The notes under the pieces are model-generated. The model saw nothing but the letters and a program-made list of their open reading frames with translations. It was not told the origin of the DNA and did not search any database. The translations under genes and the position numbers were made by a program. A stretch of DNA of 64,000 bases from contig JAFUMO010000068.1 of NCBI GenBank assembly GCA_017482565.1, positions 61,877-125,876 on the forward strand, given 5' to 3'. This stretch comes from Bacteroidales bacterium. Its GTDB lineage: Bacteria > Bacteroidota > Bacteroidia > Bacteroidales > UBA932. Below, piece by piece: positions 8,247 through 53,488 of the stretch (its first letter is position 1; the number at the start of each line of letters is the position of its first letter).

Positions 8247-8276
8247 AAAAAGATACTGGAATTCCAGTATCTTTTT
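8247..8276. terminator. Bidirectional intrinsic terminator
   Basis: A perfect 30-nt palindrome with A5 on the left and T5 on the right (core AGATACTGGAATTCCAGTAT). It lies between the convergent DUF2442 gene and the fimbrillin/beta-helix gene and can serve both strands. Confidence 0.85.
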
Positions 8277-8357
8277 CTGTTTTTTAAACTACTGTAAATA
8301 AGTTAGTTGTATAAAAGGACAACGTAAAAAGCTGTTATAGTATTGATACCATTACGG

Positions 8358-10319
8358 CTAATTAATATTTATCACTGTAGTGCCGTTAGGATAGGTTACA
8401 CTCTCGTTATTACCTATTTTTACCACAGCTTTACCATATGTATCATCGCTGTATGCAGCTGCGTTAGTGATTGTGCAGCCTGATACAGTTGCGTTGCCGG
8501 ATGCTACATACAAACCATGAGCGCCGTATGTACATTTGGCAGTAGCAGTCACATTAGTAAGAGTTGCAAACGAAACATCTACACTGATACCGCCCGAACC
8601 GGTAATAGTACTGCCTGTCATTGTCATATTTGACAAGAAATATCCGTGGATGGCATACCTATGCTGTGAATGCTGTTCATTATTGATGAAAGTCGAATTG
8701 AATGTTCCACCGTTTATTGTAGCGGTAACATTAGCATCAGCAACAGTTTTTCCTTCCAGTTTTGTAACCCCGGTATCACCCCAGTTTCTGAAACATACAG
8801 TATTAGAAGTTATGTTTGCACTCTCCATTGTTATCTGGTTCATATTACATACAGCAGCGCCATTGCTTCCATCACCTTCAAAAATAATTGTACCGTTCTT
8901 GATGGTCAGATTCGCTTTATTAATCAAACCGTATGAGATATTCCCTTTAATTGTAAGAGTCTTTCCACCCAGATCAAGTTCCAAATCATTTGAAATGGTA
9001 ATGGTTCCTGAAAGATTTACAGCGTCTGCCAATGTAACTGTTCCTCCTGCAGCGATTGCTTTGCTTAACTCGTATTCAGCAGGAGTCATTATTTTAACGC
9101 CCTCTGGAAGTGTACCGATATTTTCAAGATTACCGCCATTATTAATGATAATTGCACTACTTGTTGCGCCGTTTAGCTCAATACCCTTAAGGGTAGATCC
9201 GGCATTTACCTGAACATTACCTTGTTTTACAATTACTTTTTCAGCAGTTACACCGTTTCCAAGAATCAAGGTGTTCTCGGCGGTTGCTGCGGTTATTGAG
9301 GTGTAGGTTGTTGTTCCGCTGAGCTCAACTGTTGCTTGCGGAAGGTTTATATCCAAAGTCCTTGAAGTGCTTCCACCGTCAATAGCGATGTTTACATTGC
9401 CTGTGATTGTGGCACCGGATTCTTGGCTTACAGATAAGTCAGTAGCATCAGTACTGATAACCATATTCTTATTGTCATTGGCGCCCAATGATACTGTACC
9501 GCTTGTATAGGTAGTTGCAGAAGCGTTGGTATAGTAAATATAATTCTTTGCTGCAGTGAGTGCCTTAGGATAAATCAGGGTAAGGTCACTTTTACCTTCT
9601 CCTTTTGCCTTTATGGTCAAATCTGTGTAAGTGCCTGCAAAGATAGGGAAGTAAACAGTCTGGTCAGTACTTGTACCATTAAAGGTAATAGATTTGCTGT
9701 CTCCTGTTAAAGTGGCAGCAGGATCACCATTTGCATCCAAAGCAATTGAGTAGCTTCCCGACAGATTGCTTGTTGCAGATGACAACTCAATTGAGGTGTA
9801 TCCAGCAGGGATATTGCTTGTAGAAACTTTAACCAAAGAGCCCGCATTTTTGAATGCAAGGGCGGTGCCATTGGCTTTGGCAGCCATAGGTCCTACCTTT
9901 TCAGTTGAAGAGTAGGTGTAGGTGCTGCTTGTGCTGAGGCCTGATATTGTTCCATCTGAATATGTTGCACCCTCAGTATAAGGATATACCGCTGCAAGAA
10001 CGGTCGCATCAGCAGCCAGTTCAAAATCAGTATCTGCTTCAATGAATATTCCTTCAGTAGTTCCTTTACCGCTGTTCAATACGTATTGTACATTAGTTAC
10101 GGTGTTTCCTTGCTGTACAAATACAGATATCTTGTCATAGTTTTCCCACACTACAACATTGCCATTGGTGCCATCCTGCAATGTTGCTTTTGTGTCTGCA
10201 GCATTCTCTATTGTTGCCACAAGGGTCTCAAGGCCTGAACCTACAGGCATTGTCTCTTCTTTTTCACAACTGGTAAGGACCAATGCGAAAAGAGAAATTA
10301 TTGCAAGTAATTTCTTCAT
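8358..10319 (-). CDS. Fimbrillin-like lipoprotein with C-terminal right-handed beta-helix
   Basis: 653 residues. The signal MKKLLAIISLFALVLTSC ends in a lipobox. Residues about 20-270 resemble a fimbrillin/Mfa-like domain: an early TKAT cleavage-type motif, YDKISVF, LAAVYPY, ALAFKNAGSLVKV, IYYTNA. Residues about 275-400 are Thr/Gly-rich repeats (NVNIAIDGG, LILGNGV), and residues about 425-640 are a right-handed beta-helix (LDLGGKTLTIKGN, LTIKNGTIIFEGDGS, MTGSTITGSGGISV). It is expected to be surface exposed, either as a pilus-associated adhesin or a stalked surface protein. The gene is the second of an operon headed by a 39-residue peptide gene. Ligand unknown. Confidence 0.75.
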   Translation of the reverse strand: MKKLLAIISLFALVLTSCEKEETMPVGSGLETLVATIENAADTKATLQDGTNGNVVVWENYDKISVFVQQGNTVTNVQYVLNSGKGTTEGIFIEADTDFELAADATVLAAVYPYTEGATYSDGTISGLSTSSTYTYSSTEKVGPMAAKANGTALAFKNAGSLVKVSTSNIPAGYTSIELSSATSNLSGSYSIALDANGDPAATLTGDSKSITFNGTSTDQTVYFPIFAGTYTDLTIKAKGEGKSDLTLIYPKALTAAKNYIYYTNASATTYTSGTVSLGANDNKNMVISTDATDLSVSQESGATITGNVNIAIDGGSTSRTLDINLPQATVELSGTTTYTSITAATAENTLILGNGVTAEKVIVKQGNVQVNAGSTLKGIELNGATSSAIIINNGGNLENIGTLPEGVKIMTPAEYELSKAIAAGGTVTLADAVNLSGTITISNDLELDLGGKTLTIKGNISYGLINKANLTIKNGTIIFEGDGSNGAAVCNMNQITMESANITSNTVCFRNWGDTGVTKLEGKTVADANVTATINGGTFNSTFINNEQHSQHRYAIHGYFLSNMTMTGSTITGSGGISVDVSFATLTNVTATAKCTYGAHGLYVASGNATVSGCTITNAAAYSDDTYGKAVVKIGNNESVTYPNGTTVININ

Positions 10320-10358
10320 GATAAATTCAGTTTTGTTTGTTTTAGGTTAAGTGATCCG

Positions 10359-10478
10359 TTACCAGGCCTGCTCATTATAAGGCTCTGTGTTTGAAGTGTT
10401 GCTTGTAGCAAAACCTTTCTCTATATCTACCTCAATTATTTCAATTTGAGGAGACTCGTATAATTTCTTGTCTTCCAT
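10359..10478 (-). CDS. 39-residue Bacteroidota small protein upstream of the fimbrillin gene
   Basis: Starts ATG at 10478 and stops TAA at 10359. It opens MEDKKLYESPQIEIIEVDIE and ends in a Ser/Thr/Asn-rich tail finishing NEQAW. The pattern of a basic start, a Y-x-x-P motif, alternating Ile/Val/Glu and a short polar C-terminus matches a widespread class of tiny Bacteroidota proteins encoded beside surface lipoproteins; no function is known to me. It lies 39 nt upstream of the fimbrillin gene on the same strand and behind a good -7 element, which supports it being translated. It has no signal peptide or double-Gly leader. Confidence 0.72.
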   Translation of the reverse strand: MEDKKLYESPQIEIIEVDIEKGFATSNTSNTEPYNEQAW

Positions 10479-10547
10479 TGTAAATTATTGTTTATAGTTT
10501 GTTAATGAATTCTGCTTGCTTAGTGTGCTGTTCTTGCCCGTTAGGGG

Positions 10548-10555
10548 CAAAGATA
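10548..10555 (-). promoter_or_regulatory. -7 element of the 39-aa peptide/fimbrillin operon
   Basis: Minus strand TATCTTTG matches TAnnTTTG. It predicts a leader of about 65 nt before the ATG at 10478. No good -33 box was found. An inverted repeat (TTGCCC/GGGCAA, 10534-10550) overlaps the predicted start point. Confidence 0.55.
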
Positions 10556-10619
10556 ACTCAAGATGCAGAGTATTGCCGGGGTTTGGTGTAGTCAATACAG
10601 CTACATGTAGAATAAATGG

Positions 10620-10835
10620 CTACAGACTATGTTTGGAATTTATCTGTCGGGAATAGAGGGCGAAGAAATCTGTGTTGAGGATTTTGCAGATGCGTTCCAG
10701 CTCGTGGGTGTCTATGGAGCGTTTTGAGAAGATTTTGTACACATTGGTCCTGTGGCAGGAGAGCTCGGAGGCAAACCAAACTACGGTTTTCCCCTGCTCG
10801 TTGAGAGTCTCCTTTATAAGCTGCCCTATGTGCAT
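10620..10835 (-). CDS. Small XRE-type helix-turn-helix regulator
   Basis: 71 residues. The layout is that of a Cro/XRE HTH domain: an N-terminal helix (IGQLIKETLNEQG), helix 2 (VVWFASELSC), recognition helix (HRTNVYKIFSKRS) and two trailing helices (THELERICKILN). The tail is short and has no second domain. Such stand-alone HTH genes are common in Bacteroidota beside surface loci. The gene begins 45 nt downstream of the 3' end of the structured RNA at 10880-11192 on the same strand, and no separate promoter is visible between them. The fimbrillin operon lies next downstream. Confidence 0.8.
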   Translation of the reverse strand: MHIGQLIKETLNEQGKTVVWFASELSCHRTNVYKIFSKRSIDTHELERICKILNTDFFALYSRQINSKHSL

Positions 10836-10846
10836 TCTTTCCAGGT

Positions 10847-10869
10847 GTCTCCGGGGGCCCCCAGCCCGG
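10847..10869 (-). other. GC-rich stem-loop just before the HTH gene start
   Basis: CTCCGGG and CCCGGAG form a 7-bp GC-rich stem about 12 nt upstream of the HTH start codon. There is no T tract, so it is more likely to affect translation or RNA stability than termination. Confidence 0.45.
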
Positions 10870-10879
10870 AGCGGATAAA

Positions 10880-11192
10880 CAAAAAAGACGTGGGAGTCTT
10901 GTTTTGCTTATTCTACAATTCGGGCTCTAGCATTGCCTTAGGAAAGAATAAGCAACGCCAGTCAGCCCACGCCTGAGTGATATATAAACACACAACAGGA
11001 GAAAATGGATGTGTAAAACTGACTTTCAGTTACATGCATTTCCCCGGCCGTGCAAATAAATCACACAACGCAGACGCTTTTGTTGCCATAATCCCTTTCC
11101 TTTTGAATTTGCTAGATTCGAATTGTAGAGATTAACGCAAAAAACGCCTTTTCAATTATATGACTCCCGCCGCCCTATGGAGCCAACTGGAG
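10880..11192 (-). ncRNA. Structured RNA A, paralogue of RNA B (13372-13656)
   Basis: No credible protein is encoded in this stretch. It aligns along most of its length with 13372-13656 read on the opposite strand. Shared blocks include TTGCG-TAATCTCTA, GAATC-AGCAAATTC, GCGTCTGCGT and the 3' arm with TTGCTTAT, TGCT-GAGCCC, ATAAGCA and CCCACGTC. The 3' end folds as a long hairpin: outer stem from positions 10966-10974 with 10887-10894, inner stem TTGCTTATTCT/AGAATAAGCAA (11 bp perfect). A T6 tract follows at 10881-10886, as in an intrinsic terminator. A strong promoter lies just upstream. The central part carries a variable hairpin (AACTGA/TCAGTT). Sequence does not look like tmRNA, RNase P or SRP RNA; family unassigned. 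The HTH gene follows. Confidence 0.75.
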
Positions 11193-39332: not shown

Positions 39333-42300
39333 ATGGTAATTGAGAAAGTAAACAAACCCGATTATCTCTTTGAAACGAGCTGGGAGGTGTGCAATAAAGT
39401 GGGTGGAATCCATACAGTTGTAGCCACCAAGGCACTCAAGTTGTCCGGGAGCTACGGCAGGAACCATATCATGATTGGTCCTGATGTGTGGATGGACGAG
39501 AGCCGGAACCCGGAGTTTGCTGAGGATCCTATCCTTTTCAGGGTATGGAGACAGCAGGCCGCTTCAGAGGGATTGAGAGTTAGAGTGGGAAGATGGAATG
39601 TACCAGGAAGTCCGGTAGCCATTTTGGTTGACTTTACCACGTTCGTTTCCAGAAAGGACGAGATTTTTGCAGAGATGTGGAGGAATTTCGGGCTGGATTC
39701 ATTGAGCGGCCAGTGGGATTATGTGGAGTCTGCCCTGTTCGGTTACGCTTCAGGTAAAGTAATTGAGAGCTTTGTCAACTTCAACCTCCAGCCACACCAC
39801 AAGGTGGTAGCCCAGTTCCATGAGTGGATGACAGGTGCCGGAGTGCTCTATCTCAAGAGCAAGAACATTGCAGTAGGTACAGTGTTCACTACACATGCTA
39901 CAGTTGTGGGAAGGTGTCTTGCCTGCAACAACCTGCCTCTGTATGATTCATTGGAGCATGTGAATGCTGATGAAAAGGCAAGGCAGTTCAATGTTACTGC
40001 AAAGCACTCTCTGGAGAAGACAGCTGCCCATAATGCGGATGTGTTCACTACTGTAAGTGACATTACTGCGGCAGAATGCAGACAATTTATCGGGAAGGAG
40101 GCTGATATCATCACTCCTAATGGCTTTGACAACAGTATTGTACCTCAGGGTGAGGAATTTGACAGCAGCAGGGGTGCGGCCCGCAAGAGACTGCTGGAGG
40201 TTGCCTCTGCCATGCACGGTGTTGAGTATGGACCTGATACTGTAATTGTTGGCATTGGCGGCAGATACGAGTACAAGAACAAGGGACTGGATGTGTTCCT
40301 TGATGCCCTTGGCAGGATAAAGAGTTCAGGCAAGGGAAACAGGATCCTTGCATTCCTTATGATTCCGGCATGGAGCAACGGCCCCGACAAGGAGCTTGTC
40401 CTCAAGCTGAAGGGTGAAGGTAATCCCGCTTACATTACAAATTCAACCCATTACCTGGTGGAGCCCGAGTATGATGCAGTTTCAGGCAAGATGAGGTATT
40501 TTGGATTCAATGCACAGCAGGATAATATTGGTGTTGTGTTTGTTCCGAGCTACCTTAACGGTAATGACGGTATCTTCAACATGAAGTACTATGATCTCCT
40601 TATAGGTATGGATCTTACTGTATTCCCTTCATATTATGAGCCTTGGGGATACACACCGCTTGAGTCCCTGGCATTTGGGGTACCAACTGTGACCACAACA
40701 TTGGCAGGATTCGGCTTGTGGGTGAAGGATTATTATAAGGGGGAACATCCTGGCATTGAGGTTATAGAGAGGAACGATTCTAACTATGATGCTGTGGTTG
40801 GGAACGTGATGCAGAGGATACTGGCTGTTGCGGCCCTTCCTGAGACTGGGAAGAAGGCTTATAGCGTGAATGCCAAGGAGGTTTCAGAAATAGCCCTTTG
40901 GGACAATAATGTTAAATATTATGTGGAGGCATACGCAACTGCTCTTGATAAGGTTGTAGAGCGTAATGGTGCTTTCCCTCAAATTAAAGAAACTAAGAAT
41001 ATGACTTATCAGAAATACAAAGTGAATACTCCGGAGTGGAAGACCCTCCTTATAAACAAGGATCTTCCTGCAAAATTGAAACACCTTGATACCATCTCAA
41101 AGAACTTGTGGTGGTGCTGGAACCAGGATGCCATTGAGCTCTTCAAGATGGTTGACCTTGAGTTGTGGCAGATTGCAAACGGTAACCCTATTGCAATGTT
41201 GGATATGGTTGACCTCAAGAGATATAAGGAGCTTGCTTCGGATGAGGCTTTCCTTTCAAAGCTTGATTCGGTATACAAGAGTTTCAAGAAATATATGGAG
41301 GGCAAGTCAAAGCCTACCACTCCTCAGATTTCATATTTCTGTATGGAGTACGGTCTTGACACTTCATTGAAGATCTACTCTGGCGGCTTGGGTATCCTTG
41401 CAGGTGACTACCTGAAGGAGGCAAGCGACATGAATGTGAACATGAATGCTGTAGGTTTCCTTTATAAATACGGCTACTTTACCCAGCAGCTTTCATCTCA
41501 GGGAGAGCAGGTTGCAACATATGATCCTCAGGATTTCACCAAGACACCTGCAATTCCTGTAATGGATGCAAACAACAACTGGGTTACAATTTCAGTTGCA
41601 TTCCCTGGCAGGAATATCTATGCAAGGGTATGGAAGGTGGCTGTAGGCCGCATTGACCTCTATCTCCTGGATTCAGACATTGACCAGAACCTTCCTGAGG
41701 ACAGATGCGTTACCCACCAGCTTTATGGTGGTGACTGGGAGAACCGTCTTAAACAGGAACTTCTCCTCGGTATTGGAGGTATCAGGGCTCTGAGAGCTTT
41801 GGGCATTGATTCAGAGGTTTACCACTGCAATGAAGGCCACGCTGCATTTATCGGCCTTGAGAGGTTGAGGGAGTACGTTCAGGACAAAGGGCTTTCATTC
41901 TCTGAGGCTCTGGAGGTTGTAAGGGCTTCTTCACTATATACTACACATACTCCGGTTGCTGCCGGCCATGATGCGTTCTCTGAGGATATGATGAGGACGT
42001 ACATTTCACACTATCCTGGCAGGTTGAACATAGACTGGACAACCCTTATGTCCCTTGGAAAGATTGATCCATACAACCAGGGCGAGAAGTTCTCAATGAG
42101 TAACCTTGCTGCAAACTTGAGCCAGGAGGTTAATGGTGTGAGCTGGCTGCACGGTAAGGTGAGCCAGGATATCCTTGGCAACTTGTGGCCCGGATACCTT
42201 CCTGAGGAGCTTCACGTAAGCTATGTTACCAATGGTGTACACTATCCTACCTGGACAGCCCCTGAGTGGAAAGAGGTTCATGCAGAGGTGTTCGGTGAGG

Positions 42301-43565
42301 AGTTCAAGACACACCACTATGACAAGAGCTGCTTCAACGGTATCAGGAAAGTTGCAGACGAGAAGATATGGGAGATAAGGAAGACCCTCAAGACCAAGCT
42401 TATTGACAAGGTTAAGGAGGTGATTTCAAATCCTTCAGCTGCAAACCACTACTCTCCTGCACAGATTGTGAAGATTAAGGAGACCTTGAGGGATGATATC
42501 CTTACAATTGGTTTTGCAAGGCGTTTTGCAACTTACAAGAGGGCACATCTGTTGTTCAGGAACCTCGACAGGCTCAATGAGATTGTGAACAATCCAGAGC
42601 ATCCTGTACAGTTCCTGTTTGCAGGTAAGGCACACCCTGCCGACAAACCCGGCCAGGACCTCATCAAACATATAGTTGAGGTTTCCAAGATGCCTCAGTT
42701 CATAGGAAAGATTGTATTTGTACCTAACTATGACATTACAATTGCAAAACACCTTGTACAGGGTGTTGATATCTGGATGAATACCCCTACCAGACCTCTT
42801 GAGGCTTCAGGTACTTCAGGAGAGAAGGCTGTGATGAACGGTGTAATGCACTTCTCCGTGCTTGACGGATGGTGGGTTGAAGGTTACAAGGAGGGTGCCG
42901 GCTGGATGCTCCCTATGGAGAGGTCTTACGACAACCAGGGCTTCCAGGATGAGCTTGATGCAGCAACAATCTACAACATCATTGAGGGTGAGATTGCCCC
43001 TATGTATTACGACAAGGATGAGAAGGGCATTTCAAGCCCTTGGATTGAGACCATCAAGAACTGTGTTGCTAATGTTGCATGCAACTTCACTACAAACAGG
43101 ATGATGGAGGATTATATAAGGAAATATTATCTGCCGCTTGCAAAGAGGTCTTCAAAGATTGTTGCAAAGGATTATGCACTTGCAAAGGATATTGCAGACT
43201 GGAAGAAGAAGATGCGCAGGGAGTGGCCTATGATTGAGGTGCTTTCATCTACAAATGTAGACAACATCTCAGGTGCCCTGCTTCTGAACAACGAGTACAG
43301 GGCAGAGATGACACTTTCTGTTGGTGAGATTGACCCTCAGGATATTGGAATTGAGATTCTTCTTGCAGAGCCTAACAAGAAAGGCAAGCTCTGCATCAAG
43401 GAGATCTTTGAGTACAAGCTGAAGGAGAGCAAGGATGGCAAGGCTACCTACAGGTGCAAGATTGTCCCTGACAAGACAGGTGCGTACCAGACAGCTGTAA
43501 GGATGTATGCCAAGAACAAGCAGCTTCCGCATAGACAAGATTTTGAGTTGGTAAGATGGTTGTAG
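39333..43565 (+). CDS. Fusion of GT3-type glycogen synthase and GT35 alpha-glucan phosphorylase
   Basis: 1410 residues. Residues about 1-550 match GT3 (eukaryote-like) glycogen synthase: YLFETSWEVCNKVGGIHTVV at the start, QFHEWMTGAGVLYLK, and FPSYYEPWGYTPLESLAFGV as the sugar-nucleotide site. An internal Met at residue 557 (MTYQKYKVNTPEW) begins a region that looks like a former separate start. Residues about 560-1400 are a short-type glucan phosphorylase: ISYFCMEYGLDTSLKIYSGG, VYHCNEGHAAF, THTPVAAGHD, and LEASGTSGEKAVMNG with the PLP lysine at about 1165. One polypeptide thus holds chain-building and chain-degrading activities. It overlaps ribF by 10 nt. Confidence 0.92.
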   Translation: MVIEKVNKPDYLFETSWEVCNKVGGIHTVVATKALKLSGSYGRNHIMIGPDVWMDESRNPEFAEDPILFRVWRQQAASEGLRVRVGRWNVPGSPVAILVDFTTFVSRKDEIFAEMWRNFGLDSLSGQWDYVESALFGYASGKVIESFVNFNLQPHHKVVAQFHEWMTGAGVLYLKSKNIAVGTVFTTHATVVGRCLACNNLPLYDSLEHVNADEKARQFNVTAKHSLEKTAAHNADVFTTVSDITAAECRQFIGKEADIITPNGFDNSIVPQGEEFDSSRGAARKRLLEVASAMHGVEYGPDTVIVGIGGRYEYKNKGLDVFLDALGRIKSSGKGNRILAFLMIPAWSNGPDKELVLKLKGEGNPAYITNSTHYLVEPEYDAVSGKMRYFGFNAQQDNIGVVFVPSYLNGNDGIFNMKYYDLLIGMDLTVFPSYYEPWGYTPLESLAFGVPTVTTTLAGFGLWVKDYYKGEHPGIEVIERNDSNYDAVVGNVMQRILAVAALPETGKKAYSVNAKEVSEIALWDNNVKYYVEAYATALDKVVERNGAFPQIKETKNMTYQKYKVNTPEWKTLLINKDLPAKLKHLDTISKNLWWCWNQDAIELFKMVDLELWQIANGNPIAMLDMVDLKRYKELASDEAFLSKLDSVYKSFKKYMEGKSKPTTPQISYFCMEYGLDTSLKIYSGGLGILAGDYLKEASDMNVNMNAVGFLYKYGYFTQQLSSQGEQVATYDPQDFTKTPAIPVMDANNNWVTISVAFPGRNIYARVWKVAVGRIDLYLLDSDIDQNLPEDRCVTHQLYGGDWENRLKQELLLGIGGIRALRALGIDSEVYHCNEGHAAFIGLERLREYVQDKGLSFSEALEVVRASSLYTTHTPVAAGHDAFSEDMMRTYISHYPGRLNIDWTTLMSLGKIDPYNQGEKFSMSNLAANLSQEVNGVSWLHGKVSQDILGNLWPGYLPEELHVSYVTNGVHYPTWTAPEWKEVHAEVFGEEFKTHHYDKSCFNGIRKVADEKIWEIRKTLKTKLIDKVKEVISNPSAANHYSPAQIVKIKETLRDDILTIGFARRFATYKRAHLLFRNLDRLNEIVNNPEHPVQFLFAGKAHPADKPGQDLIKHIVEVSKMPQFIGKIVFVPNYDITIAKHLVQGVDIWMNTPTRPLEASGTSGEKAVMNGVMHFSVLDGWWVEGYKEGAGWMLPMERSYDNQGFQDELDAATIYNIIEGEIAPMYYDKDEKGISSPWIETIKNCVANVACNFTTNRMMEDYIRKYYLPLAKRSSKIVAKDYALAKDIADWKKKMRREWPMIEVLSSTNVDNISGALLLNNEYRAEMTLSVGEIDPQDIGIEILLAEPNKKGKLCIKEIFEYKLKESKDGKATYRCKIVPDKTGAYQTAVRMYAKNKQLPHRQDFELVRWL

Positions 43566-50777: not shown

Positions 50778-50951
50778 CTACAGCGCAGCCGGGTTGAAGA
50801 ACATTTTCCTGAACTGGTTTGCCATGTAGATCATCTTTGCTATTGTGCCTATGCACTCAGCTATGAACTCAACAAGCCTGGCTGTCTCCTCGTTCTTGCC
50901 TCCATATATGGCGGAGGCCTGTCTGATGTCAATTTCAATGAAATTTCCCAT
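50778..50951 (-). CDS. Putative secreted peptide 2 with double-glycine leader
   Basis: 57 residues. The leader MGNFIEIDIRQASAIYGG (18 residues) ends in Gly-Gly, with hydrophobic residues at -4 (Ile) and -12 (Ile) as in C39-peptidase substrates. The predicted mature peptide is 39 residues, starts KNEETARLVEF and ends FNPAAL; it is amphipathic, carries one Cys and an A-x-x-x-G segment, and has balanced charges. An AGGAGG site lies about 7 nt before the ATG, an unusually strong Shine-Dalgarno for this genome. It follows peptide 1 by 11 nt. I do not recognise a family; it may be one half of a two-peptide bacteriocin or a signal. Confidence 0.72.
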   Translation of the reverse strand: MGNFIEIDIRQASAIYGGKNEETARLVEFIAECIGTIAKMIYMANQFRKMFFNPAAL

Positions 50952-50962
50952 GATATCCCCTC

Positions 50963-51154
50963 CTATAAGTTTTTCCAGCCCCTTTTGAGCCCGTTCCAGA
51001 TCTCTTCCCTGTACTCCTTGATGAAGGCTACAGCCTTTTGTACATAGTCCCAGAAGTTGTCCAGGAATGCTACGGCAACACCGCCCCTTACAATTGACAT
51101 TTCCTGACGGCTGATTTCCACCAGACCGCTGCAATCACTTTTTATCCGTTTCAT
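50963..51154 (-). CDS. Putative secreted peptide 1 with double-glycine leader
   Basis: 63 residues. The leader is 25 residues and ends ISRQEMSIVRGG, which fits the consensus for C39 substrates: hydrophobic at -12 (Ile), Ser at -11, Glu at -8, Met at -7, Val at -4, Gly-Gly at -2/-1. The predicted mature peptide has 38 residues, begins VAVAFLDNFWDYVQKAV and ends GLKRGWKNL; it is aromatic-rich, amphipathic, free of Cys and contains a GxxxG motif. It starts 25 nt after the stop of the C39 ABC transporter gene. Role inferred: bacteriocin-like or signalling peptide exported by that transporter. Confidence 0.78.
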   Translation of the reverse strand: MKRIKSDCSGLVEISRQEMSIVRGGVAVAFLDNFWDYVQKAVAFIKEYREEIWNGLKRGWKNL

Positions 51155-51179
51155 AAATCATGTTTTAAATTTCCTGCCG

Positions 51180-53336
51180 TCAAGTGCTACGCAGGTTACC
51201 ACTTCCGGTGGGAGTGTGGCCGCACCCCTCCCGGCCTATATCAACAACGTTGTCTGCAATTGTACCGTTATCCCTTTTGTGGGAAATGAAAATTATTGTC
51301 TTTCCGGCATCCCTGAGCCCCACCAGGGCCTCCAGCACGCACTTTTCACTTTCAGGGTCCAGGGAGGAGGTGGCCTCATCTAGGATATATATCCTGGGAT
51401 TCCTGTAGATTGCCCTTGCCATGGCAATTTTCTGGCATTCTCCTCCCGACAGGCTGCATCCTCCACTACCGGCTCTGGTAAGGAGCCCCTGAGGGAATCT
51501 TTCTGCCATATCCATCATCTTCAGCCTGCCACATATTTCCAGGACTTTCCCTATATCAGGCTCATCCTCCCCAAGGGTGATGTTGTCAAGTATGGTAGCA
51601 TTGAACAGGGCTGCTCTCTGTGGTACATACCCTATCATGCTCCTCCACCGGGATGTATTGAGGCGGCTGATGTCAATTCCGGAGTATCTTATGGTTCCCG
51701 TGCCGGGAGTGTGGTCTTTCAGTATCAGTGAGGCCACCGTGCTCTTTCCGCATCCGCTACCGCCCCTGAGTAGGGTAATCTTTCCCCTGGGGGCGGTGAA
51801 GGATAAGCCGTGCAGGAGCTCTTCCCTCCCCGGATACCGGAAATGTACCCCTTCAACCACAATGTCCCCGTCCAGGCTGTCAGGAGATATTGCGGCAGAG
51901 GTTGTCCCTGCTCTGTCTGCTCCGGCATATCCTGCTCCATCTTCGTCGGGAAGGGAAAGAATTTCAAATATCCTGCTGCAGGAGACAGAGGTCCTTGCAA
52001 TCATTTCATTTGTCCTTATGAGGTCATCTACAGGAACCGTAAAGAAAGAGCATAGGGAGTAGAACCCCACCAGTTCACCTATACTCATCTCTCCCCTGAG
52101 GAGGGCGGCGGAACCGGCGGTTAGGATGATGCAGAGCAGTATCCTTGATATCCCCTGTACCGATGTGGAGAAGAGGTTCACGGCATCGGCGCAGCGGTTG
52201 AGGCTCTCCGCCATCCCCACATAGCTCCGTTCCATCTTTCCGGCGGCAAGACGGTATGCCCCGTAGTGTCTTATACAACCCTGGGTGGAGACCAGTTCCA
52301 GCAGGTCTGTCTGGAATGCGGCGCCGGAGGCGGCAACCTGCCTGCTGTATTTCCTGTTCATGTGCCCGGCTATTCTGTAGAGTGCGTAATATGCCGGGAG
52401 TGCCAGTGTGATGATGATTGAAAGCCTAGTGTTGTAGCAGTACATCACAGCCAGAGCCCCAATAATTGTAATCAGGCTGGTGAATATCCCTATGGTTCCC
52501 CCTGTAATGAATGAGCGGATGTGGTGTATGTCCTCAATCCTGGAGGATATCTCGCCTGCCTGGAAACTGCTGAAGAACCCTGCTGGGAGCCTGAGCAGCT
52601 TCTCCATATAGCTGCATGTGAGGGTGGTCTCAACCTTCAGGCTGCACCTTATGAGGTATCTTGTGGTACAGTAGCCTATATAGAGTGAGGCAAAGGTGAG
52701 AGAGAAGAGCAGCAGCGCAAGGAATATGACAGCTGCGGCGTTTCCCTGAGGGATCACCTTGTCTATTGTCTGCTGCAGCAGGAATGTGGTGCTTATACCG
52801 GCTGCCGTACAGGCCATTGAGCCGGCAGCTGCAAGCGCCAGTTCTTTCCGGTTAGCCCGGGCGAGTTCCCATAGTGCCGCTGCAGATGAAGCTGTGCCAT
52901 CATCTGCAGCCTTTACGGTAAAGCTTGGAGTGACAGCAATGATGTATCCTGTCCATATTGCGGCAAAATCACTTTTCTTCATCTTCTTCATCTCCCCTCC
53001 GGCCGGGTCCATCACTTCCAGCATATCTTTTCCCACACGGTATACCACAATGAAATGGAGGAGCCCATCCTTATCCATGGTATGGGCAATTGCCGGAACA
53101 GGGATGCTGCTTATGGATGAGGGCTCCTTGCCGGGGGATCTGTACCCCTTCGCATCCAGTCCAAGCCGGGACGCCCCGTCTATGATTCCCTGTATGGTGA
53201 TTCCGTCTGGAGTACAGCCGCAAAGGAGCCGTGTGCGGGCAATGGAGGCCCTTATCCCGTAAAATGCTGCTACGGAGACAAGGCAGGCAGCCCCACAGTC
53301 ATATCTGTAATGCTGGCGTATCTTTACATTCTTCAT
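51180..53336 (-). CDS. C39-peptidase-containing ABC transporter for double-glycine peptides
   Basis: 718 residues from ATG 53336. The N-terminal C39 domain (about 1-135) has the oxyanion Gln8, catalytic Cys14 (HYRYDCGAACL), His94 (LLHFIVVY) and Asp110 (VMDPAGG). A six-helix membrane domain (about 175-440) follows, then an ATPase with Walker A RGGSGCGKST, signature LSGGE, Walker B IYILDEATSSLD and H-loop FISHKRD. Such proteins cut after Gly-Gly and export the peptide. Two candidate substrates follow directly. Its ATG overlaps the stop of the 51-residue membrane peptide gene (ATGA), so translation is coupled. The DNA appears more GC-rich than its neighbours. Confidence 0.93.
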   Translation of the reverse strand: MKNVKIRQHYRYDCGAACLVSVAAFYGIRASIARTRLLCGCTPDGITIQGIIDGASRLGLDAKGYRSPGKEPSSISSIPVPAIAHTMDKDGLLHFIVVYRVGKDMLEVMDPAGGEMKKMKKSDFAAIWTGYIIAVTPSFTVKAADDGTASSAAALWELARANRKELALAAAGSMACTAAGISTTFLLQQTIDKVIPQGNAAAVIFLALLLFSLTFASLYIGYCTTRYLIRCSLKVETTLTCSYMEKLLRLPAGFFSSFQAGEISSRIEDIHHIRSFITGGTIGIFTSLITIIGALAVMYCYNTRLSIIITLALPAYYALYRIAGHMNRKYSRQVAASGAAFQTDLLELVSTQGCIRHYGAYRLAAGKMERSYVGMAESLNRCADAVNLFSTSVQGISRILLCIILTAGSAALLRGEMSIGELVGFYSLCSFFTVPVDDLIRTNEMIARTSVSCSRIFEILSLPDEDGAGYAGADRAGTTSAAISPDSLDGDIVVEGVHFRYPGREELLHGLSFTAPRGKITLLRGGSGCGKSTVASLILKDHTPGTGTIRYSGIDISRLNTSRWRSMIGYVPQRAALFNATILDNITLGEDEPDIGKVLEICGRLKMMDMAERFPQGLLTRAGSGGCSLSGGECQKIAMARAIYRNPRIYILDEATSSLDPESEKCVLEALVGLRDAGKTIIFISHKRDNGTIADNVVDIGREGCGHTPTGSGNLRST

Positions 53337-53488
53337 GGCAGTATGGGTATTATGAAGAGTGAGACAATGCACAGCACGGCGGCAAGAACCAGCATGAATA
53401 TGAATGTGGCATCCCCGTGGCGGGTAGGTAGGAGTATCCTTTGGGGGGATTCTCCAAGCTGTTGCAGTGATGGTGTGTTTTCAGTCAT
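53333..53488 (-). CDS. 51-residue single-span membrane peptide coupled to the C39 transporter
   Basis: ATG at 53488, TGA at 53335-53333. The protein has a polar start (MTENTPSLQQLGESPQRILL) and one membrane helix (ATFIFMLVLAAVLCIVSLFI) close to its end (PILP). An AAGGAG Shine-Dalgarno lies about 8 nt before the ATG, and the stop overlaps the transporter ATG, so expression as a unit is likely. It could be an immunity peptide, a transporter accessory subunit, or a remnant of an HlyD-type protein's N-terminus, which in Bacteroidota peptide exporters has a similar polar-then-helix shape. No family recognised. Confidence 0.68.
   Translation of the reverse strand: MTENTPSLQQLGESPQRILLPTRHGDATFIFMLVLAAVLCIVSLFIIPILP

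Follow-up and report, generated by a model that had tools for sequence, protein, structure and literature searches.

A putative two-peptide export system with a C39 transporter at a fixed chromosomal place in one family of Bacteroidales

Introduction

Most known two-peptide GxxxG systems come from Gram-positive bacteria, and among open-licence papers we found none describing a two-peptide system of Bacteroidota with double-glycine (GG) leaders and GxxxG motifs. For the Bacteroidales, a survey of ribosomally synthesized and post-translationally modified peptides describes peptidase-containing ABC transporters (PCATs) and GG-peptides alongside modification enzymes (PMC10352776, in the available sections), and the available part of a survey of the Hungate1000 collection mentions only lanthipeptides for a Cryptobacteroides strain. 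The bacteroidetocins are a precedent in this order for PCAT-linked toxins without an immunity gene: in the available portion of PMC6671954 their loci carry no immunity protein, and the producers inhibit themselves on plates. Here we describe a locus in a Bacteroidales bacterium (GTDB lineage UBA932), contained in a 64,000-nt stretch of contig JAFUMO010000068.1 (assembly GCA_017482565.1, positions 61,877 to 125,876), hereafter the window. It encodes a PCAT directly followed by two small precursors, P1 and P2, which a first-pass annotation of the sequence had taken for an unrecognised two-peptide export system. We read the whole as a PCAT-exported pair forming a core chromosomal trait, whose likeliest use would be class IIb-like antagonism of relatives, a model to which we give about even confidence.

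Results

A complete PCAT precedes two double-glycine precursors

The Pfam models ABC_membrane, Peptidase_C39 and ABC_tran each exceed their cut-offs in the transporter. With a C39 domain bearing Cys, His and Asp, an ABC membrane domain and an ATPase all present, its sequence identifies it as a PCAT. The catalytic residues are those named by the first-pass annotation, Cys14, His94 and Asp110, with Gln8 preceding the cysteine, and these columns are kept over 51 orthologues (Q and C in 50 with one gap each, H and D in all 51). Protein length is counted from MKNV, the listed open reading frame (ORF) beginning at an upstream GTG. Among solved structures, the nearest relatives (4ry2 and others, E 2e-90) bear the label ABC-type bacteriocin transporter. 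Since the genome containing the window (G000; 2.1 Mb, 70 contigs, 89% complete) has a single C39 domain, P1 and P2 are the likely cargo of this PCAT.

The start of P1 lies 25 nt behind the PCAT stop codon, and 11 nt separate P1 from the start of P2. As proposed earlier, both small genes encode GG leaders with hydrophobic residues at positions -12 and -4: the P1 leader, ending in ISRQEMSIVRGG, shows I-12, E-8 and V-4, and the P2 leader, ending in IDIRQASAIYGG, I-12 and I-4. The mature parts of 38 and 39 residues, carrying GLKRG (GxxxG) in P1 and AECIG (AxxxG) in P2, had likewise been read correctly. Neither window peptide matches a Pfam or NCBIfam model above cut-off, nor does any curated bacteriocin model reach its cut-off with them, which agrees with the description of the pair as unrecognised; the best sub-cut-off matches, TrmB (0.015, P2) and a CTB-family bacteriocin (0.17, P1), are unrelated or very weak. 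Other family members yielded stray weak matches only, in one member each: ComC (3e-5), BlpC (4e-4) and lactococcin G-beta (0.035) for P1, and Bacteriocin_IIc (0.05) for P2. These scattered similarities, with the ComC and BlpC models matching weakly in one of 24 P1 members, point to peptide pheromones and bacteriocins.

The GxxxG-type motif is the best kept mature feature

For 60 loci, P1 and P2 were taken as the best profile matches among the small ORFs after PCAT, a choice that is biased towards conserved motifs. The first-pass annotation had made its reading depend on conservation of the two ORFs, and the pair is indeed present in 58 of the 60 loci; the other two are a contig edge (L168) and a locus where one ORF serves both profiles (L139). 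The mature peptides of 57 loci were aligned, excluding L168, L139 and L051, which is a near-copy. Because the trimming rule partly fixes Gly-Gly, its occurrence in 57/57 leaders is no independent evidence. In mature P1, the columns kept in at least 85% of rows are Tyr48 (52), Gly55 (57) and Gly59 (53, with Ala in 4), while in P2 only Gly35 reaches this level (57/57), preceded four residues earlier by Gly (41) or Ala (16) in every row. The pairing motif, Gxxx[G/A] in P1 and [G/A]xxxG in P2, is the best kept feature of the mature peptides. Any GxxxG is found in 53/57 P1 sequences against a shuffled mean of 14.2 (maximum 22), and in 41/57 P2 sequences against 11.2 (maximum 19).

Both peptides are also amphipathic, again as first proposed, and this goes beyond chance: the hydrophobic moment over 18 residues exceeds the shuffled mean in 57/57 P1 and 56/57 P2 sequences (mean z 2.33 and 1.90, respectively). 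Median mature length is 40 residues for P1 and 44 for P2, at median net charges of +2 and +3, and two or more cysteines occur in 2/57 P1 and 0/57 P2 sequences.

The pair keeps one place across a family

A search of 61 genomes found PCAT in 34 of the 36 other genomes of the genus, at 33-55% identity in 33 of them and at 29% in G035, where the match lacks the first 81 residues. In this last genome (L065), the PCAT ORF lacks the beginning of the C39 domain (C39 match E 7e-6); P1 and P2 are still present. The first-pass annotation had suggested a search for the transporter and its paired small ORFs in relatives, and they recur both here and in 11 further genera: among the 39 genomes of the genus, 37 have one place each that matches the P2 profile, the exceptions being G001 and G010, which gave ABC matches only of the non-C39 kind. 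All fetched loci of the genus share the gene order, with the pair between PCAT and tolC. In G010, cvpA is directly followed by tolC-macA-tsaB, PCAT, P1 and P2 being gone; in G001 (L183), cvpA adjoins tsaB and the entire block has disappeared, tolC and macA included. The same junction is seen in G063 (L169), from another genus, with tolC and macA missing along with the block.

Two side observations were made in relatives. In G010, ORFs that by eye appear ATPase-like and recombinase-like lie between cvpA and ileS (L117, about 8265-11143). A second, unrelated PCAT is found in G030 and G015 (L068, L069); its neighbours are an ORF that looks radical-SAM-like by eye and a precursor that combines a GG leader and a Cys-rich core.

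Across the genus and the 11 further genera, all of one family, the chromosomal place is fixed as ileS-cvpA-[PCAT-P1-P2]-tolC-macA-tsaB. Such a constant position in most of the relatives covered suggests that the set is ancestral and has a long-standing, built-in function. Among 20 loci from the other genera, PCAT is found in 20, ileS and cvpA upstream in 18 (L126 is rearranged and L139 lies on a short contig), tolC downstream in 19 and macA in 18, with L130 lacking both tolC and macA. In an order-wide sample, P2 matched in 4/295 genomes: the window's own, two from the same family but different genera, and one whose weak match falls in a frame of 355 aa. A sample of 398 genomes of the family gave 153 genomes for the P1 profile, 169 for P2 and 220 for Pfam C39, the P1 and P2 counts being at E up to 0.1 and including chance matches. 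Among the matches listed, 127 of 135 genomes with P1 (E up to 8.7e-6) also have P2, and in each of these 127, P1 comes first and P2 lies behind it on the same strand, the two profile matches being separated by 6-90 nt. Neither profile found a convincing match in the large genus g26, whose member G063 reads cvpA-tsaB.

The block is inherited vertically and the peptides are under purifying selection

Presence of the PCAT locus was mapped onto an IleS tree built with FastTree, whose 71 tips (53 with and 18 without the locus) were picked because their loci had been fetched. The duplicate L146 and short IleS rows were dropped before changes were counted, and two labels were recoded by hand: L158 to absent, as the match covers the ABC part only, and L150 to present, as PCAT lies just outside this stretch but in L168. 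The presence label needs five changes, which we interpret as a single gain plus four separate losses (G339; G345 with G063; G010; G001). In Mantel tests over 51 loci, distances correlate with those of IleS at r 0.79 for PCAT, 0.81 for TsaB, 0.75 for CvpA, 0.74 for MacA and 0.72 for TolC, with 0/2000 permutations as high for each gene. The PCAT-P1-P2 block is inherited vertically across 12 genera. A tblastn search with P1 and P2 at E 0.01 returned no match in plasmid or phage records.

Omega was estimated from 18 chosen close pairs, which are not independent and of which 14 gave a usable value. The median is 0.158 for P1, 0.136 for P2 and 0.125 for PCAT, with lower values in TolC and MacA (0.06) and in IleS (0.05); individual P1 pairs go as high as 0.40-0.76, from small counts. 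P1 and P2 are under purifying, not diversifying, selection, and evolve faster than their housekeeping neighbours.

Genes around the pair

The minus-strand order of the locus is cvpA, a 51-aa ORF with one transmembrane (TM) segment, PCAT, P1, P2, a TolC-like gene, a MacA/RND-type gene and a TsaB-like gene (Table 1). The TolC- and MacA-type genes and the 51-aa ORF are additions to the first-pass annotation.

Table 1. Features of the locus, in minus-strand order, and the unlinked P1-like protein of the same genome
Feature	Position	Strand	Remarks
cvpA	54074-53571	(-)	Pfam Colicin_V
51-aa ORF, one hydrophobic stretch (one TM)	53488-53333	(-)	overlaps PCAT start
PCAT, 718 aa: C39 peptidase, ABC membrane and ATPase domains	53336-51180	(-)	Pfam
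P1 precursor, 63 aa: leader 25 aa (..IVRGG), mature 38 aa	51154-50963	(-)	GLKRGW near C-terminus
P2 precursor, 57 aa: leader 18 aa (..AIYGG), mature 39 aa	50951-50778	(-)	AECIG
TolC-like outer-membrane channel, 3' of P2	50626-49298	(-)	Pfam OEP 1e-55; ATG start; 151 nt gap
MacA/RND-type periplasmic adaptor	49285-48050	(-)	NCBIfam RND_mfp over cut-off; MacA model below
TsaB-like gene	48046-47345	(-)	Pfam TsaD domain
P1-like anchored protein in the window's genome	G000:C60:29559-29702 (L184, L193)		relatives L190-L201, L208, L214, L220-L238

A small hydrophobic ORF precedes PCAT in 31 of 59 loci and is not found in L032-L035, which are near relatives with a gap of 120-150 nt; as a universal immunity gene it was therefore rejected. 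Where present, the one-TM protein may be an accessory or immunity protein. In many relatives the ORF before PCAT is hydrophobic, often with an SPEW/SPQW-like motif ahead of the TM segment. An origin as the N-terminal stump of an HlyD adaptor was considered and set aside, as there is no clear similarity to full HlyD-type ORFs (L064, L070).

Just before the P2 start, AGGAGGGG at 50955-50970 (-) is a good Shine-Dalgarno match, and a match as good as this is unusual in the phylum. Scans of the locus for sigma-70-like and terminator-like signals gave values no higher than in shuffled sequences. Elsewhere in the window, 39333-43565 (+) is a single 1410-aa ORF in which, by eye, a glycogen/starch-synthase-like part and an alpha-glucan-phosphorylase-like part are fused.

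An unlinked membrane-anchored protein resembles P1

Besides P1 itself, the P1 profile weakly matched a second site (positions 39-61, E 0.002-0.012) in G000 and the five relatives nearest to it. These second matches lie in an unlinked protein of 48-50 aa with one hydrophobic stretch, a tail reading EYWPxIVEGFNRGW and no GG leader. Its last 27 residues align with the end of P1 in hhalign (probability 94.5%, E 8e-8 for a single comparison), and searching in the reverse direction, with profiles built from the anchored protein, retrieves P1 tails from other genera. The positive N-terminus is predicted to lie inside, with the tail in the periplasm. Residue W or L after GxxxG is matched between P1 and the anchored protein, which follows clades and may be plain ancestry.

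The anchored protein is found in 32/39 genomes of the genus (E up to 3.1e-5, plus G034 at 0.002) and is missing from G008, G010, G014, G025, G029, G030 and G035; G010 has lost PCAT-P1-P2, and G001, where the block is lost, has the protein. A divergent hydF (Pfam HydF domains) adjoins it in 18/35 loci; L219 and L239 represent the same place, leaving 17 distinct ones. No copy adjoins hydF in G335 or G340, both with the PCAT system, or in four genomes without it: G010, G339, G345 (where the hydF match is weak and split) and G063. In genome-wide searches of other genera, the seven genomes without PCAT gave no convincing match, and neither did most of the 13-14 that carry PCAT; in the latter, the top matches were often P1 itself. 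Because most PCAT-bearing genomes of other genera thus lack a convincing match, co-occurrence links the protein to the system weakly, and inside this genus only. For the same reason a role as obligate immunity for the whole family was rejected; at most part of the family would be served.

The anchored protein is a candidate for a decoy-type immunity or partner protein. As a decoy, this one-TM protein with P1's GxxxGW/L motif in its periplasmic tail would capture P2 at the membrane. That an ancestral class IIb-type core trait spares its producers, at least in this genus, through such an unlinked mimic of P1, immunity being decoy pairing, strikes us as rather doubtful; should the protein indeed protect the producer, bacteriocin immunity would have a novel form that is simple to test.

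Discussion

The data establish gene content and order, conservation, motif, selection and inheritance; we infer that PCAT cuts and exports both peptides via MacA/TolC, and that the peptides pair as helices and act on membranes. P1 and P2 would be the cargo of the neighbouring PCAT, whose C39 domain would cut both leaders after Gly-Gly and whose ABC part would export the mature peptides; the MacA-type adaptor and TolC-type channel, a route proposed from their families and the gene order, would carry them across the outer membrane. That the two are an exported, processed pair is very probable. The mature peptides would be short amphipathic helices, probably pairing through GxxxG (P1) and [GA]xxxG (P2) and then acting as one two-component membrane-active factor. 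Self-protection would rely on a changed target or an unlinked protein rather than on a linked immunity gene.

This model draws support from the paired precursors with their leaders and the C39 residues, the adjacency of P1 and P2 in all 127 genomes with both matches listed, the single C39 domain of G000, the aligned pairing motifs, the purifying selection on both peptides, the scattered weak family matches and the bacteroidetocin precedent, as well as from the absence of tolC and macA where the block is missing, in G001 and G063. Several observations weigh against it. G010 keeps TolC and MacA without PCAT-P1-P2, and L130 has PCAT and the peptides without TolC and MacA, hence adaptor and channel are not strictly tied to the pair. 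No linked ORF family common to all loci was found; Gram-positive two-peptide bacteriocin clusters include a dedicated immunity protein with TM segments, according to the available part of PMC6957408. A simple pattern for the Bacteroidetes-type promoter has no match at the locus. Finally, a weapon would not usually be inherited vertically and be present in nearly every genome of its genus.

This core, vertical setting would be no less fitting for a signal or self-directed factor than for a weapon, and we therefore rate antagonism, as opposed to a signal or matrix role, at about one half. A core peptide signal or kin-recognition pair, acting on its own lineage through an unlinked receptor, would explain why the system is near-universal in the genus (37/39, with one P2 copy per genome among the matches listed), vertically inherited (Mantel r 0.79 for IleS and PCAT) and under purifying selection, and the isolated matches to ComC and BlpC, each in a single member, point the same way. 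Those matches may, however, stem from the shared leader, the conserved block contains no receptor or regulator, a linked receptor kinase included, and to our knowledge GxxxG pairing is typical of membrane-active peptides and not of known pheromones; we consider a signal possible but the less likely use. Still less probable is a structural role, in which the pair would form surface matrix or envelope material by analogy with the GG-motif proteins of Synechococcus elongatus. Precedent exists in EbfG1-4 and the C39 transporter PteB, needed for biofilm in that organism (PMC4997328, available sections), and in the Caulobacter two-protein Cdz system, which forms surface aggregates via glycine zippers (PMC5380434, available sections), but single GxxxG motifs and many charges (median +2 and +3) are unlike long hydrophobic glycine zippers.

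PCATs can export unlinked cargo, so the small ORFs might be chance or decayed frames and the true cargo be encoded elsewhere. Given the pair in 58/60 loci and in order in 127/127 genomes with both matches listed, and omega near 0.15, we reject chance ORFs and regard this explanation as extremely improbable.

For a PCAT-exported antagonistic pair, known systems offer partial parallels. PCAT1 and ComA (PDB 4ry2, 8hf4) share the C39-ABC architecture over nearly the whole length; unlike the PCAT here, they are Gram-positive and have different cargo. The bacteroidetocins have in common with this locus the Bacteroidales host, the PCAT, the GG leader and published loci without an immunity gene; they differ in being single peptides with at least two cysteines and in having a 5-TM protein and a thiol oxidoreductase in the cluster. 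Here there are two peptides, two or more cysteines occur in only 2/57 P1 and 0/57 P2 sequences, and the cluster has neither of these two genes. The first-pass annotation had ascribed to them a YGN-type motif, wrongly, since the available text of PMC6671954 describes YGNGVXC as lacking. Caulobacter CdzC/CdzD shares the Gram-negative host, two small proteins, type I secretion and GxxxG-type motifs; it differs, in the available text of PMC5380434, by its extended glycine zippers, the immunity gene cdzI and often horizontal acquisition. Extended GxxxGxxxG zippers are not conserved in P1 and P2, which have a single motif only, and a CdzI-like gene was not profile-searched. EbfG/PteB likewise combines small GG-motif proteins and C39 export in a Gram-negative host, but comprises four proteins with a biofilm function, and the available sections of PMC4997328 report no pairing motif.

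Closest in build are the class IIb bacteriocins (lactococcin G, plantaricins), with which the locus has in common two adjacent GG-leader precursors and a GxxxG or GxxxG-like motif in both mature peptides. In contrast to them, this putatively active system has no immunity gene linked in all members and no linked regulator, a TolC/MacA-type route, a vertically inherited core locus and no usable sequence similarity. Of the two-peptide bacteriocin first proposed, the class IIb-like build thus stands and the usual setting does not. The system would work in the manner of class IIb; we do not claim membership because the activity is predicted, the linked immunity gene is a candidate present in part of the loci and none of the curated models gives a match. 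A clean natural experiment is offered by sister species that have or lack the block. A two-peptide system kept vertically at a fixed place across a family separates the class IIb build from its usual mobile, immunity-linked setting.

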